NCBI GenBank assembly: GCA_003021175.1
Contig: PXQV01000013.1
Coordinates: forward strand, 1 to 44,585
DNA from: Halobacteriales archaeon QH_7_66_36
GTDB taxonomy: Archaea; Halobacteriota; Halobacteria; Halobacteriales; Haloarculaceae
Direction: 5' to 3'
DNA length: 44,585 nucleotides
The position numbers were made by a program, and so were the translations under genes. Below the pieces are notes generated by a model, which was given only the letters and a program-made list of their open reading frames with translations, was not told the DNA's origin and did not search any database. Within the stretch, counting starts at the first letter, position 1; every line of letters begins with the position of its first letter. This document shows, piece by piece, positions 3,335-8,406 of this stretch.

Positions 3335-5050
3335 TTACGCCAGCGCCGCGAGGTCGAACTCGAAGGCCGCGACGGGGAGTTCGAGGTCGTGTTCGACGAG
3401 CACCGCCGGATGTAGCTCACCGATGATCCCCGCCGGTTCGCCGTCGAGTCGAATCTCGGCTGCGCGGCCGTCGATGAACGACGGGTGCTCGGTCGGCGGT
3501 GTCGAGAGGTCGGCACCGAACGCGCTCGCGAGCCGCTGGAGACGGGCCTTCGCGTCTTCGTAGGAGGCGTCGGTCCGGGCGAGCGCGGCCGCGACGGTCC
3601 GCCGCTCTGCCACGCCCGAAGCCGCGTCCGGGTCGCGCTCGGCCGCGAAGCCGACCTCCGCGATGTCCTGCGGATAACGGCGGTGCGTGTTGTTCTCCAA
3701 GACCATCGTGAGCGACGGGAGCGCCCACGTTCGCAGCATGGTGTACGCCTCGCTGTACGGCCCCTCGACGGCGACGGACGCACCGCCCCCGAGAACGTCC
3801 GTGTCCTGTGTCACGCACATCCGCTCGTAGTTCTCTTCCTCCGAGATCATGTGGAAGTTCAGCAGGTCCTCGAAGCCGAGGCCGACGAGCGCGTTCCGCA
3901 CCGACCGTTCCAGTTTCGAGCGGTCGTGGCGACTGCCGACCGTCGACACGTCCGGGTAGCGCGGCTCTAACTCGTTGAAGCCGTACGCACGACCCACGTC
4001 GTCCACGAGGTCCATCGGGTGGAGCACGTCCACGCGGTACGGCGGGATGGTCACCTCGTAGGCCGTCTCACCGTCGCGGTCCGTCTCGCTCGCGTCTAGC
4101 CCCGACCGCTCGAACAGGTCGACGACATCCTCGCCGGACACGTCGATGCCGAGCGTCGTCTCGATGCGGTCGTGGGTGACGGTCTTCGTCCGCGTGTCCA
4201 GCGCAGGCCGGACGAGTTCGCGGTCCGGATAGTCGACGGTCACCTCCTCGATGCGTCCCCCGCGCGCGTCCAGCGCGTAGCAGACGATGGTGAGCATCTT
4301 GTCGACCGTCCACTGGTCGGTGCCCGTCATCTCGATCAGCAGGTCGCGAGAGCCCTCGTCCACCTCGGTTCGCTTCCCGTTGATCACCGGCGGGAACGAG
4401 AACAGCCCGATCTCGTCGTAGATGGCCGGGTACGAGTCGTAGTCGGCGACGAGGTCGGCGTACGTGTCGCCGGTGGGGTGGTCAGTCAGCACCTCGGCGG
4501 GCGTCATGTCGGCGTCCGCGTCGAGGGGAACGAACCGGTCGCCGTCCGGGTCGATACCGGTGTAGGAGATGACTTTCGAGCCGTCTTTTTCTTCGTCGGC
4601 CGACCGCCCCTTCAGCATCGCCAGATCGTGGACGCCGATGGCACCTTTCGCCCGCTTGCGCCCCATCGTGGCGTGGAGCTTCTCCTGCAGTTGGATCAGC
4701 GATTCGAGTTTCCCCTCGGTCATGTCGACGCCGCGGACGACGGCGGCGGTGACGTACGGGCGCTCGTCGGGCACGTCTCGCACCTCGACGGTCCACTCGG
4801 CGTCGTTCGTCGACGGGACGTAGACGCCACGGGCGTCGCCGTACTGGTAGCGCAGCGACCGCGCGATCCCCTCGACGGAGAGCCGGTCGAGTCGGTCGGG
4901 GGCGAACTCGAACTGGAACGCCCCGTCGTCCGTCTCGCCCTCGAACTCCAAGCCGAGCGCGAACAGGTCCTCGCGCAGTTCTGCGTCGCTCTTCGCCTCG
5001 TAGCCCGCGAGTTCGCGCAGTTCGTCGGGATCGACATCGACGACCGGCAT
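3335..5050 (-). CDS. pheT: Phenylalanyl-tRNA synthetase beta subunit
   Basis: This 571-residue protein has the archaeal/eukaryotic-type PheT layout: an N-terminal B1-like region (MPVVDVDPDELRELAGYE), the B3/B4 tRNA-editing region with RLSVEGIARSLRYQYG, the B5 DNA-binding-like fold (around VDYPDRELVRPALDTRTKTV), and a C-terminal catalytic-like module (GLGFEDLLNFHMISEEENYER, here split over residues of the core). It pairs with PheS to charge tRNA-Phe and to edit mischarged Tyr-tRNA. The ATG overlaps the pheS stop (TGATG), so translation is probably coupled. It is convergent with pyrD. Confidence 0.96.
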   Translation of the reverse strand: MPVVDVDPDELRELAGYEAKSDAELREDLFALGLEFEGETDDGAFQFEFAPDRLDRLSVEGIARSLRYQYGDARGVYVPSTNDAEWTVEVRDVPDERPYVTAAVVRGVDMTEGKLESLIQLQEKLHATMGRKRAKGAIGVHDLAMLKGRSADEEKDGSKVISYTGIDPDGDRFVPLDADADMTPAEVLTDHPTGDTYADLVADYDSYPAIYDEIGLFSFPPVINGKRTEVDEGSRDLLIEMTGTDQWTVDKMLTIVCYALDARGGRIEEVTVDYPDRELVRPALDTRTKTVTHDRIETTLGIDVSGEDVVDLFERSGLDASETDRDGETAYEVTIPPYRVDVLHPMDLVDDVGRAYGFNELEPRYPDVSTVGSRHDRSKLERSVRNALVGLGFEDLLNFHMISEEENYERMCVTQDTDVLGGGASVAVEGPYSEAYTMLRTWALPSLTMVLENNTHRRYPQDIAEVGFAAERDPDAASGVAERRTVAAALARTDASYEDAKARLQRLASAFGADLSTPPTEHPSFIDGRAAEIRLDGEPAGIIGELHPAVLVEHDLELPVAAFEFDLAALA

Positions 5051-6555
5051 CAGGCGAGCACCTCCACGTTCCGCAACAGGTCGAGATCACACAGGGTGCC
5101 GTGTACGTCGCGGATGTCCTCGAACCCGTACATCAGCATGAGCAGGCGTTCGAGCGCGAGTCCCCACGCCATCACGTCACACCCGACGCCGAGCGGGCGG
5201 AGCACCTCCTCGCGGAAGATGCCGCTGTTGCCGATCTCGACTATCTCTCCCGTCTCCGGGTGCGTGCCGAACAGCTCGAAGCTCGGCTCCGTGTACGGGT
5301 TGTAGTGGGGCTTGAACTCGATGTCGGTGATGCCAAACTGGCTGTAGAACTCCTCGAAGGTGCCCATCAGGTCGCGCACGGACAGGTCCTCCGCCATCAC
5401 CCACCCCTCGATTTGGAAGAACTCCAGCAGGTGGGTCGGGTCGAGCGTGTCGTTGCGGTACACCTTCTCGACGGAGAACCACCGCTGGGGTGGCTCCAGT
5501 TCCCCGACGGCCTCCCCGGAGAGATACCGCATCGACAGCGAGGTGGTGTGACCGCGCAGGGCCACCTCGCGGGCGAACTCCTCGCTCCACGGGGAGTGAT
5601 ACCCCTCGCCGTTCTCGCCGACGCCGTTCCGGTGGGCGTCCTCGACCCGGTCGACCAGTTCGGTGGGCAGGTCGTCCATCGGCTCGGTGTCGAGCGTGAA
5701 CCGGTCCCAGTGGGTCCGCGCCGGGTGGTCCTGTGGCATGAACAGCGCGTCGTTGATCCAGAAGTCGGCGTCTGCGTGCGGTCCCTCCATCTCCGAGAAG
5801 CCCATCCCGACGAGGGTGTCCTTCACCGACTCCGCGGTCTGTCGGAGGATGTGCGTCCGCCCGCCGGAGGCGGGGTCGGCGTCGGCCTCGACGTTGTACT
5901 CGGCGAATTCCACGTCCTTCCACTCGCCGGAGGTGAGCAGGTCGGGGGTGAGTTGCCCGACCGTCTCGGCCGGCTCGACGCCCTCCATCAGCGCGGTGAC
6001 GCCGTCGTCGGTCAGCGTGACCGCCCGCTCGACGCGTTCGGACCGGTCGACGAGCCCGCGCTCAGCGAGTCGGTCGACGACCGCGTCGTCGCTCACCTCC
6101 TCGCCGTCGGCGATTGCCGCCAGCGCTGCGGCGTGCGCGTCGGATTCGGGGTCGACATCCGGATCGGCGGACAGCGCGCCGTCCTCGATGTCGCCGAGTC
6201 CCTTCTGCGCGAAGTTCGTCAGCGCGATGTCGACCGTCGGTCCCTCCAAGTCGGCGTCGCCGATGACACGGCCCATGTTCACGGGGTCGTCGGTCGCGCC
6301 GGCCGCGACTGCGGCGCAATAGAGTCGAACTTCCGGCAGGCCCGCCTCACGGTAGCGGCTCCCCTCGTCGGTGAGCGCGAGTCGTTCCTCCGTGCGCTCT
6401 TCGACGGCGACGAGACCACGCTCTTCGAGGTCGAACGCGGCCCCGGCGAGCGCCTCCGGATTCTCGCCGGTGTCGTCCGCTAGCTGTGCGACTGTCTTCG
6501 AGTCGGTCGCGCTCGCGGCCTCCAAGAGCGCGACCTGCGTGTCGGGTAGCTTCAT
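5050..6555 (-). CDS. pheS: Phenylalanyl-tRNA synthetase alpha subunit
   Basis: This 501-residue protein has an N-terminal winged-helix/DNA-binding-like region (LPDTQVALLEAASATDSKTV, then repeated HTH-like segments). A class II catalytic core follows from about residue 240: GFSEMEGPHADADFWINDAL, then HPART, LRGHTTSLSMRYL, EPPQRWFSVEKVYRNDTLDPTH, FFQIEGWV, and motif 3 GCDVMAWGLALERLLMLMYG. It forms the heterotetramer with PheT. The ATG at 6553-6555 lies about 98 nt after the stop of a short Phe-rich upstream ORF (6654-6734), which is described separately as a candidate attenuator. Confidence 0.97.
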   Translation of the reverse strand: MKLPDTQVALLEAASATDSKTVAQLADDTGENPEALAGAAFDLEERGLVAVEERTEERLALTDEGSRYREAGLPEVRLYCAAVAAGATDDPVNMGRVIGDADLEGPTVDIALTNFAQKGLGDIEDGALSADPDVDPESDAHAAALAAIADGEEVSDDAVVDRLAERGLVDRSERVERAVTLTDDGVTALMEGVEPAETVGQLTPDLLTSGEWKDVEFAEYNVEADADPASGGRTHILRQTAESVKDTLVGMGFSEMEGPHADADFWINDALFMPQDHPARTHWDRFTLDTEPMDDLPTELVDRVEDAHRNGVGENGEGYHSPWSEEFAREVALRGHTTSLSMRYLSGEAVGELEPPQRWFSVEKVYRNDTLDPTHLLEFFQIEGWVMAEDLSVRDLMGTFEEFYSQFGITDIEFKPHYNPYTEPSFELFGTHPETGEIVEIGNSGIFREEVLRPLGVGCDVMAWGLALERLLMLMYGFEDIRDVHGTLCDLDLLRNVEVLA

Positions 6556-6653
6556 TTGTCCTTGCGTGTGCGTGTCGCTCAGTTAGCGGTTCCGACCGAG
6601 AACGGCGGTTTCGACGCGGCGCGTCGGCGTGACACCCCCCGTCTCCACCCCGC
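6556..6653 (-). promoter_or_regulatory. pheST leader, possible attenuator structures
   Basis: This untranslated stretch lies between the leader-peptide stop and the pheS ATG. It is rich in self-complementary GC blocks. At its upstream end the leader's Arg-Pro-stop codons lie in the hairpin CCGCC-CGTA-GGCGG. A further stem CGACGC/GCGTCG lies around 6613-6627. The arrangement of a cognate-codon run immediately before overlapping hairpins resembles bacterial amino-acid attenuators. No U-rich intrinsic terminator is obvious, so a different readout (translation coupling or archaeal termination) would be needed. Confidence 0.45.
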
Positions 6654-6734
6654 CTACGGGCGGAAGAAGAAGCCGAACCCCGTGCTGTCGGTCGGTGGGC
6701 GCGCTGCGCGTCCGGCACGGGATTCGGGTGCCAT
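6654..6734 (-). CDS. Candidate Phe-rich leader peptide of pheST
   Basis: A 26-codon ORF starts at ATG 6732-6734 and ends GFGFFFRP then TAG at 6654-6656. Four Phe codons (TTC GGC TTC TTC TTC) cluster directly before the stop. A TATA-like TTTTGTT (6757-6763) is centred about 26 nt upstream of this ATG, so a leaderless transcript would begin at or next to the leader ATG. It sits about 98 nt upstream of pheS on the same strand. Seen: the ORF, the codon cluster, the TATA spacing. Known: E. coli pheST is controlled by the Phe-rich pheM leader. Inferred: an equivalent control here. Confidence 0.6.
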   Translation of the reverse strand: MAPESRAGRAARPPTDSTGFGFFFRP

Positions 6735-6754
6735 GCGCGAGGATGTGGGTGAGC

Positions 6755-6766
6755 GGAACAAAAGGG
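6755..6766 (-). promoter_or_regulatory. TATA-like promoter of pheST leader
   Basis: CCCTTTTGTTCC on the minus strand is the only AT-rich promoter-like element I see between the repeat at 6790 and pheS. Its spacing to the ATG at 6734 fits a leaderless mRNA. Confidence 0.5.
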
Positions 6767-6789
6767 TTGTGCGTGTGTCGTGCCAGTAG

Positions 6790-6953
6790 TGTTCAGATAC
6801 GCGGGTCGTCGCTCGACCGAGTAACTGCGTGGGGTGGGACTGAAAGGGGCCGGGCGGTCGACGAAGCACGCCGACGTAAGGACCGCACCGCGAGCGAAGC
6901 GAGCGGGAGGACCGCAGCGAGGCGCGCGAGTCGAGCGACCGGGGGCTTTCTAC
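6790..6953 (+). repeat. Dispersed intergenic repeat, copy A
   Basis: The copy starts TGTTCAGATAC, then GGGTCGTCGCTCGAC, then GTGGGACTGAAAGGGGCCG, and ends CGACCGGGGGCTTTCTAC. The same ordered blocks occur at 24863-25186, and a partly matching inverted copy lies at 7058-7185. The interior contains CGACGAAGCACGCCGACGTAAGGACCGC. It lies in a 680-bp gene-free interval between pheS and the FAD oxidoreductase. Reading frames through it have biased, arginine-rich composition and are unlikely to be genes. Function unknown. Confidence 0.75.
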
Positions 6954-7057
6954 GCCCTGTTGCTGGCTCATCCAACTGAATTGCTGTTATTTGATCACTA
7001 CCGTCGTGGCGGTGCTGTTCAGTGAAGCCTTGGGGTTGCCGTGACAGGAGCGGCGAC

Positions 7058-7185
7058 GATTTTGGAAGCCCCTGCACGCTCGACTCGATGGGCTCGCTGC
7101 GGTCCTCGTCGGTCGCGTCGCTCCCGCCTGCGGTCCTTGCGTCGCCCGTCTTCGTCGAGCGCACAGCCCCTTCCAGTCCCACCCC
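7058..7185 (-). repeat. Dispersed intergenic repeat, copy C (inverted, diverged)
   Basis: The minus strand reads GGGTGGGACTGGAAGGGGCT, CTCGACGAAGACGGGCGACG, CAAGGACCGCA, GAGGACCGCAGCGAG and finally CAGGGGCTTCC. These blocks correspond in order to copy A, with substitutions. The TGTTCAGATAC end is not recognisable; the upstream flank instead has an AT-rich TTTTTAAGTG. The two copies face each other in one intergenic region. The 6954-7057 spacer between them shows no gene. Confidence 0.65.
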
Positions 7186-7239
7186 GACTGGTTCTTTAGC
7201 CAGTACTCACTTAAAAACACGACCGTGTAGCGACCGCGC

Positions 7240-8406
7240 TCAGGCCACGTGTCGCTCCGCGTGCGTCTCCTCGCGGTCGAACCGCTCGCGGTCGAGACCG
7301 GACACGTCCACGAGCGACGCCCGCCCGTCGAGACACAGTTCGGCGACGATCCGACCGGTCGCGGGCGCGTGCTGGAACCCGTGGCCCGAGAAGCCGGCAG
7401 CCGTGGCGACGCCGGGACGCGATATCTCGATGACGGGGTGGTCGTCCGGCGTGACGGCGTAACAGCCCGCCCAGCCGCGTCGGATTCGACTTTCGGGTCC
7501 GAAGTAGCCGGCCGTCTCGCCGGCCCGCTCCACGGCCGTCGCCGCCCAGTCGAAATCCACGTTCGTCTCGACCGCGTCGGGGTCGACCGCCGGGTCCGCC
7601 GCCGAGAAGTGACCGCCGACGAGCGCGTTGCCGTCTCGCTCCGGCCGGAAGTACGACCCCGAGTCGAGGTCGATTGTCAGCGGAACCGACTCCGGCACCG
7701 ACGTCGTCGGCTCGACGACCGCTATCTGTCGGCGCTTCGGCACGACCGGCAGCTCGACGCTCGCGAGTCGACCCACGCGGCGCGCCCACGCGCCCGCCGC
7801 GTTGACGACGAAATCCGCTGCCAGCGAGTCGTCTGCCGTCTCCACGCGAACGTCGGCCGCTCCCGTTCCCTCGTCGTCGCCGTCAATCCGGATATCCGTC
7901 ACGGGCGTGTGCGTCCGAATCTCCGCGCCGGCCTCGCGCGCAGCCCTCGCGTACCCCTGAAGAGCGAGGTGCGGGTCCGCGAACCCGTTGGTCGCGGCGT
8001 AGGAGGCGACTTCGTACCGCTCGGCGTCGAGTTCGGGACAGTGTTCGCGCGCCGCGCTCGGCGCGAGCAGTTCGCTCGCCGCGCCGGCGTCCCGTTGCAC
8101 GTCGACTGCCGCTTCGATGCCGGCCGCAGTGTCCGGATTGCGCGCGAGGAACAGATACCCCGGCTGGCGGTGGGCGATGTCGACGCCGAACCGCTCCTCG
8201 AAGGACTCCCACACGTCGAGCGACGCCAGCGATAGCTCCACGTTGACGCGCGTGGAGAACTGCGTGCGGATGCCGCCGGCGGATCGTTCCGTGTTGCCCG
8301 CCCCGAGCCTGCCGGCCTCGCAGACGACGACCGACGCGTCCCGCTCCGCGAGCGCGTGGGCGGCCGCCAGCCCGACGATGCCACCCCCACAGACGACGAC
8401 GCGCAT
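7240..8406 (-). CDS. FAD-dependent amino-acid/sarcosine-type oxidoreductase
   Basis: This 388-residue DAO-superfamily flavoprotein begins MRVVVCGGGIVGLAAAHALA, a clean Rossmann dinucleotide motif. It is followed by RSAGGIRTQFS (FAD-contact region) and RQPGYLFLARN. The C-terminal signature is GWAGCYAVTPDDHPVI with AAGFSGHGFQHAPATGRIVAEL. The family oxidatively deaminates or demethylates glycine, sarcosine, D-amino acids or related amines; the substrate cannot be read from sequence. The protein is cytoplasmic with no signal peptide. The ATG at 8406 directly precedes the nucleotide-binding strand, so the start is firm. It lies downstream of trpS on the same strand with a 54-nt gap. Confidence 0.88.
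   Translation of the reverse strand: MRVVVCGGGIVGLAAAHALAERDASVVVCEAGRLGAGNTERSAGGIRTQFSTRVNVELSLASLDVWESFEERFGVDIAHRQPGYLFLARNPDTAAGIEAAVDVQRDAGAASELLAPSAAREHCPELDAERYEVASYAATNGFADPHLALQGYARAAREAGAEIRTHTPVTDIRIDGDDEGTGAADVRVETADDSLAADFVVNAAGAWARRVGRLASVELPVVPKRRQIAVVEPTTSVPESVPLTIDLDSGSYFRPERDGNALVGGHFSAADPAVDPDAVETNVDFDWAATAVERAGETAGYFGPESRIRRGWAGCYAVTPDDHPVIEISRPGVATAAGFSGHGFQHAPATGRIVAELCLDGRASLVDVSGLDRERFDREETHAERHVA

Follow-up and report, generated by a model that had tools for sequence, protein, structure and literature searches.

A conserved phenylalanine-codon leader upstream of haloarchaeal pheST as a candidate ribosome-read regulator

The pheST locus and its leader open reading frame

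A stretch of 44,585 nucleotides from contig PXQV01000013.1 of Halobacteriales archaeon QH_7_66_36, here called the window, was analyzed for the region preceding the phenylalanyl-tRNA synthetase genes. On the minus strand, pheS and the overlapping pheT are preceded by a short open reading frame (ORF) of 26 codons (6734-6654, -), whose peptide MAPESRAGRAARPPTDSTGFGFFFRP ends with GFGFFFRP directly before the stop codon; 98 nt separate this stop from the pheS ATG (6555, -). An earlier note on this DNA had pointed out such an ORF about 98 nt ahead of pheS on the same strand, and the sequence bears this out. The following features were assigned:

3335..5050, minus strand: pheT, beta subunit, overlapping the pheS stop; assigned from position and sequence
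5050..6555, minus strand: pheS, phenylalanyl-tRNA synthetase alpha subunit
6582..6598, minus strand: P2, conserved promoter-like element CGGAACCGCTAACTGA near pheS; pattern GAA[AC]..TA at median -41, in loci with and without leader
6601..6654, minus strand: H2, conserved hairpin after the leader stop with internal loop YGGAC/CGAAA; covariation, RNAalifold, match of covariance model R1, minimum free energy (MFE) fold of the window
6654..6734, minus strand: leader ORF, MAPESRAGRAARPPTDSTGFGFFFRP plus stop; homologous leaders in 78 distinct loci, profile match at 6657-6734 (E=6e-9)
6663..6677, minus strand: Phe codon cluster TTC GGC TTC TTC TTC, codons 20-24; purifying selection is strongest across the last 9 codons
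6673..6685, minus strand: 3′ strand (B) of helix S1, GCACGGGGTTCGG, codons 17-21 including the first Phe codon; covariation, MFE fold of the window
6715..6727, minus strand: 5′ strand (A) of helix S1, CCGAATCCCGTGC, codons 3-7; covariation, MFE fold of the window
6759..6771, minus strand: P1, BRE/TATA-like element of the leader, CAACCCTTTTG; T-run at -29 to -26 from the leader ATG, position fixed in relatives

For the analysis of conservation, 110 haloarchaeal pheS loci were gathered and duplicates were then removed. An ATG-initiated ORF ending in a Phe cluster was found in 78 distinct pheS upstream regions, with a median length of 26 codons, the consensus MAxEP...GFGFFFA before the stop, and the last Phe codon 2 to 4 codons ahead of the stop in 75 of the 78 loci. 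Comparison of close leader pairs gave dN/dS values of about 0.32 in the last nine codons versus about 0.75 elsewhere, which are indications only as the pairs are non-independent; the middle of the peptide is nearly free of constraint.

To estimate the chance expectation, 3144 ATG ORFs of 20-32 amino acids from 2.4 Mb of a same-genus genome were inspected, and only 21 carried at least three Phe within the last 12 residues, corresponding to about 0.001 Phe-ended ORFs per given 300-nt upstream window. A scan of the same 2.4 Mb combining promoter and amino-acid cluster, with the promoter model built from pheS leaders, returned the pheS leader as sole strong match (score 21.0; next 6.0) and no leader for another amino acid of matching strength. 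Furthermore, a profile of 36 leader peptides was searched, blind to pheS, in six frames of 195 genomes of the host's order. Among the 100 genomes for which the leading match and pheS were both listed, 98 had the match on the pheS strand, 38-196 nt ahead of the gene. Judged by its sequence context, the Phe-ended ORF before pheS is thus no chance feature. Across a broader set of 148 genomes from the phylum, all ten profile matches at E<=0.001 came from the host's order; since this threshold also loses some true haloarchaeal leaders, the absence elsewhere is only indicative.

The leader is dispensable, because it is missing from about a quarter of the distinct pheS upstream regions (26/103), including those of three of the six genomes of the host's genus. 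In the leader-less relatives L100, L102 and L050, trpS lies directly upstream of pheS; at L100 a hairpin has been retained, with GACGAAACCG behind it and no leader ORF. At another locus, L013 from a metagenome assembly, the leader DNA is full-length with the Phe run one base out of frame, due to either decay or a sequencing error.

Conserved helices S1 and H2

The earlier note had suggested that an alignment of haloarchaeal upstream regions would reveal a conserved Phe-codon ORF with covarying hairpins, and besides the leader ORF in 78 loci two covarying helices were found. The first, S1, surfaced on joint folding of the leader with the hairpin H2. Here, codons 3-6 (CCGAAYCCC), encoding the conserved SEP or SES, pair with the Gly-Phe-Gly codons (GGGRUUCGG) near the end of the same ORF. 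In the window, S1 comprises 13 bp, CCGAATCCCGTGC with GCACGGGGTTCGG, and is present in the MFE fold. At least 8 bp are formed in 73 of the 78 leaders, and the median of 9 bp compares with 6 bp in codon-permuted and synonymously redrawn controls. In an alignment of 58 ungapped rows, which excludes atypical leaders such as those of L088, Halorubrum and Haloglomus types, 96.9% of the cells are paired and 38 are compensatory; none of 500 shuffles reached this, and slid controls gave 15-61%. Where the Gly codon is GGA, the partner position in the Ser codon is T in 14 cases and C in one.

The atypical leaders pair as well. At L088, Asp and Val replace Glu and Phe (SDS/GVG), and the exchange GAC/GTC keeps a 9-bp pairing. 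Halorubrum leaders carry CGAACGC/GCGTTCG with the peptide LER/AFG, both amino acids being altered with the pairing retained, and Haloglomus leaders pair GTCGGACGC with GCGTCCGAC. As compensatory changes alter both amino acids, RNA pairing explains the conserved N-terminus of the peptide. This bears on the idea that the ORF encodes a functional small protein standing upstream of pheS by accident: conserved residues at both termini would fit it, but the conservation of SEP/SES follows from pairing with the Phe codons, the middle of the peptide is nearly free, and the profile match is tied to pheS, so that we regard such a protein as extremely improbable. The Phe codons form one strand of S1 and would, as we infer, double as the sensor.

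The second helix, H2, starts right after the leader stop, with 2-13 nt to its GYGGA, and consists of an outer helix, the internal loop YGGAC/CGAAA whose GGA and GAA hardly vary, if at all, an inner helix and a variable tip. When 55 loci were aligned by sequence alone, 85.8% of the cells paired and 167 were compensatory (0/500 shuffles; slid controls 31-53%). The structure was first read off the same sequences, and RNAalifold arrived at the same ten core pairs without guidance. A covariance model of H2 (R1) matches the window at 6597-6658 with E=8e-5 and has its best site at the pheS leader in many of the haloarchaeal genomes searched. Thermodynamic support is moderate: single-sequence folding yields a mean outer-helix probability of about 0.5, and the leader region of the window folds only 1.3 sd below shuffles.

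The hairpin that the earlier note had placed at the leader stop is a different one. Its local CCGCC-CGTA-GGCGG pairing is present in the window, is not conserved across loci and was discarded as a functional element; the GGCGG strand belongs to H2. A scan of 5900-7400 of the window against Rfam up to E=5 returned a single chance-level match (E=3.1, microRNA family), and neither a T-box nor any other described Rfam family, including the bacterial Phe leader, gave a covariance-model match.

Matches of the H2 model outside pheS are mostly chance-like, with the exception of those before metG. A hairpin sharing the loop motif, GGUGGA/GAAAC, precedes metG in many haloarchaea (e.g. G000:C8:195182-195255, loci L180/L191, and loci L201, L206, L208, L210, L213, L215-L217) and stands after a mini-ORF starting ATGCG and encoding MR, MRP or MRMRTSF. 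About eight loci have an apical loop of the CUCAUAC type in a stem, which resembles the tRNA-Met anticodon arm (CUCAUAA in the host's genus). Based on these motifs, the metG hairpin is possibly a MetRS operator or a Met sensor.

The pheS leader RNA could be a protein operator bound at the H2 internal loop, for example by PheRS or a shared factor, with the Phe codons being secondary. The invariant or almost invariant GGA and GAA of this loop and the recurrence of the loop motif before metG, there together with the anticodon-like apical loop, would agree with binding by a protein. At pheS, however, the apical loops of H2 are unconserved and contain no Phe anticodon, and an operator accounts neither for the selection at the peptide's Phe-rich end nor for the Trp leaders at trpS2 described below. 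Therefore, we consider an operator of this kind very unlikely.

Promoter-like elements, published transcript data and Trp leaders

The motif could be anchored in 61 leaders, and in 58 of them the AA of the BRE starts precisely 34 nt ahead of the leader ATG; in the window, the T-run at -29 to -26 lies at the distance anticipated for a leaderless start in haloarchaea. Given this fixed distance of P1, the ribosome is expected to translate the leader ORF from a leaderless mRNA. An element of the P2 type, GGAACCGCTAACTGA, is conserved at about -41 to -27 relative to pheS. It is the only promoter-like element that loci without a leader retain, there as GGAAC..CTAAC with a median position of -41, and leader-bearing loci share this position. 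The element is also kept in L005, L006, L084-L086, L089 and L091, where both leader and hairpin are absent. The earlier note had described the leader ATG as lying about 26 nt below the only good TATA-like element; the spacing holds, and P2 makes "only" untenable.

Since P2 is kept at the same median position in leader-less loci, a second, unregulated pheS promoter is possible, and to judge from its sequence P2 may supply pheS mRNA that bypasses the leader. Taken further, the leader could be untranslated or vestigial with pheS expressed mainly from P2, as the persistence of P2 in leader-less loci would allow. Against this, the helices covary, leader and promoter are widely retained, and H. volcanii has no TSS at pheS itself according to the published mapping (PMC4983044, Babski et al. 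2016, Table 2); an untranslated or vestigial leader is thus very unlikely.

For H. volcanii, differential RNAseq had located, among 16 uORFs in 5′UTRs of 150-250 nt, a 26-aa uORF ahead of pheS (HVO_2948) and a 23-aa uORF ahead of the tryptophan-tRNA ligase gene HVO_A0127, neither gene having a further TSS at the main ORF in the table given there (PMC4983044). Several Haloferax leaders of our collection are 26 codons long, in agreement with the published pheS uORF, and the 26-aa leaders of Haloferax relatives have masses of 2792-2850 Da compared to the published 2772 Da, a comparison made via the relatives' sequences. The earlier note had named TSS mapping as a check; for one relative, the published data fit a transcript with the uORF inside the pheS 5′UTR and no second TSS. 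In this relative, the transcription start was hence already known, and the text consulted does not remark on a regulatory meaning.

A divergent trpS (trpS2, HVO_A0127 type) occurs in 66 of the 195 sampled genomes of the host's order, i.e. a third. Its own, unannotated leader ORF encodes a conserved WRW that is placed within a pairing stem (L221-L223, L225-L227, L230, L353-L355); examples are MVSTSHANCWRWHAFREVDSIAV from H. mediterranei and, outside this species, MSAPTGRWRWQSRGADSVAAVAGRA. The stems around the Trp codons, such as GTCCACTTCCC/GGGAAGTGGAC, TCTACTTCCC/GGGAAGTAGA and TGTCCGCTCCC/GGGAGCGGACA, were read by eye rather than by a formal count. A profile built from Trp leaders places 17 of its 21 top matches (E<=5e-4) immediately ahead of a trpS2 gene and another one ahead of a trpS2 remnant. 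Matches away from trpS2 and trpA are located at G213:C5:226357, G117:C1:477515 and G189:C169:518. Upstream of trpS1, the trpS type of the window itself, no Trp leader was found in 30 loci scanned, a weak negative since about half of them were not read in trpS orientation. The presence of cognate codons at two synthetase genes, Phe at pheS and Trp at trpS2, is hard to explain save by codon sensing.

Proposed mechanism and comparison with known systems

From the ORF with its Phe cluster, the position of the promoter, and the order, spacing and wide conservation of both helices, we infer translation, stalling, an "on" fold and a readout. The leader would quite probably act in cis as a ribosome-read sensor of pheST for charged tRNA-Phe at Phe codons. 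Transcription from P1 would begin at or beside the leader ATG, so that a ribosome could load on the leaderless ORF as the RNA emerges. With ample Phe-tRNA, this ribosome would pass the Phe codons and reach the leader stop, where it would cover the 5′ strand of H2 while S1 re-forms behind it. With scarce Phe-tRNA, it would stall on the Phe codons and thereby on the 3′ strand of S1, so that S1 would be blocked and H2 would stay folded, a state taken here as giving more pheST. The position of the ribosome could thus choose between folds, because a stall occupies the S1 3′ strand short of H2, and arrival at the stop codon places the ribosome over the beginning of H2 with the S1 strands free again. 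Together with the Trp leaders, the pheS leader would probably belong to a haloarchaeal family of leader-peptide sensors for at least two amino acids, Phe at pheST and Trp at the divergent trpS, which would share leaderless mRNAs, a helix tying the ORF start to the sensing codons (pheS) or surrounding them (trpS2), and the lack of a U-run terminator.

No conserved alternative pairing between the strands of S1 and H2 was found; both helices are adjacent and compatible, and for this reason a classical two-state switch is not indicated. As such a switch, base-pairing between the Phe strand and the 3′ strand of H2 was inspected and rejected: where the Phe strand differs, in Halorubrum and L088, no compensating change is seen. 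Between the leader stop and pheS, a T-run of at least 4 is absent in 78/78 loci, the longest having 3, which excludes a terminator based on a T-stretch and leaves termination without a U-tract, translation or decay as readout.

In a translational readout, the leaderless uORF would capture ribosomes, and pheS, located on the same RNA and lacking a Shine-Dalgarno sequence, would be reached by re-initiation or internal initiation as set by the stopping place of the first ribosome, with H2 acting on its release. The missing U-tract terminator, the position of H2 directly 3′ of the leader stop, and the fact that by eye most of the loci listed have no evident Shine-Dalgarno before pheS are all in line with this. 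The distance of 85 to 245 nt from stop to pheS is, however, long and loose for re-initiation, and we know of no haloarchaeal precedent for re-initiation of this kind, which makes a translational readout unlikely.

The likeliest readout would be the share of P1 transcripts that continues into pheS, i.e. premature termination without a U-tract, which we hold tentatively at somewhat under an even chance. It is preferred over translational or stability readouts because in H. volcanii, where T-stretches are the best terminators, one tested hairpin without a T-motif terminated 59% of transcripts in vivo (PMC7237163), and because a published hypothesis, put forward as no more than that, would have the archaeal factor FttA police transcription-translation coupling in a Rho-like manner (PMC11616081). 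The reading of the earlier note is kept for a leaderless Phe-codon leader serving pheST, given the conserved Phe cluster and the covarying helices, and abandoned for its named hairpin; attenuation of the bacterial type, with its U-run terminator, is not supported.

If this is true, it would be the first case in archaea of an amino-acid attenuator read by the ribosome, and an amino-acid switch needing no U-run terminator would be implied. To our knowledge, ribosome-read attenuation has so far been a bacterial story, and a literature search leaving out most subscription journals found no report of archaeal leader-peptide attenuation. The leader addresses the question whether transcription and translation in archaea are coupled tightly enough for attenuation, and as a conserved Phe leader with covarying helices occurs in the genetically tractable Haloferax, coupling becomes directly testable. 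Moreover, a function is suggested for two uORFs mapped earlier by their TSSs without explanation (pheS, HVO_A0127). These have the same lengths as the Haloferax leaders studied here, 26 aa for pheS and 23 aa for HVO_A0127, while the publication, in the text consulted, gives no Phe or Trp content, conservation, RNA structure or regulatory reading for them (PMC4983044).

Compared to operators of the E. coli thrS type, which are tRNA-like, the metG leader of haloarchaea is alike in its anticodon-like CUCAUAC loop, combined with the H2 internal loop; H2 at pheS differs in having no conserved anticodon-like loop and, its apical region being unconserved, was dismissed as an anticodon mimic. With attenuation of the trpL type, the trpS2 leaders share cognate codons as putative sensor, here as WRW inside a pairing stem, and differ in preceding a synthetase gene.

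In the enteric attenuators of pheM-pheST and pheA (pheL), a Phe-rich short ORF lies directly upstream of the regulated genes; its Phe codons come late, and RNA hairpins surround it. The haloarchaeal leader resembles them in its Phe-rich upstream ORF, the late Phe codons and the flanking hairpins. Thus, it has the upstream short ORF rich in late cognate codons that marks bacterial leader-peptide attenuators, whereas their intrinsic terminator of hairpin and U-run is absent from 78/78 loci. It further differs in its putatively leaderless ORF, without a Shine-Dalgarno sequence, and in S1, which pairs the ORF start with the Phe codons; a mutually exclusive terminator and antiterminator were not found. 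The pheST leader would thereby represent a new variant of leader-peptide regulation, in archaea.
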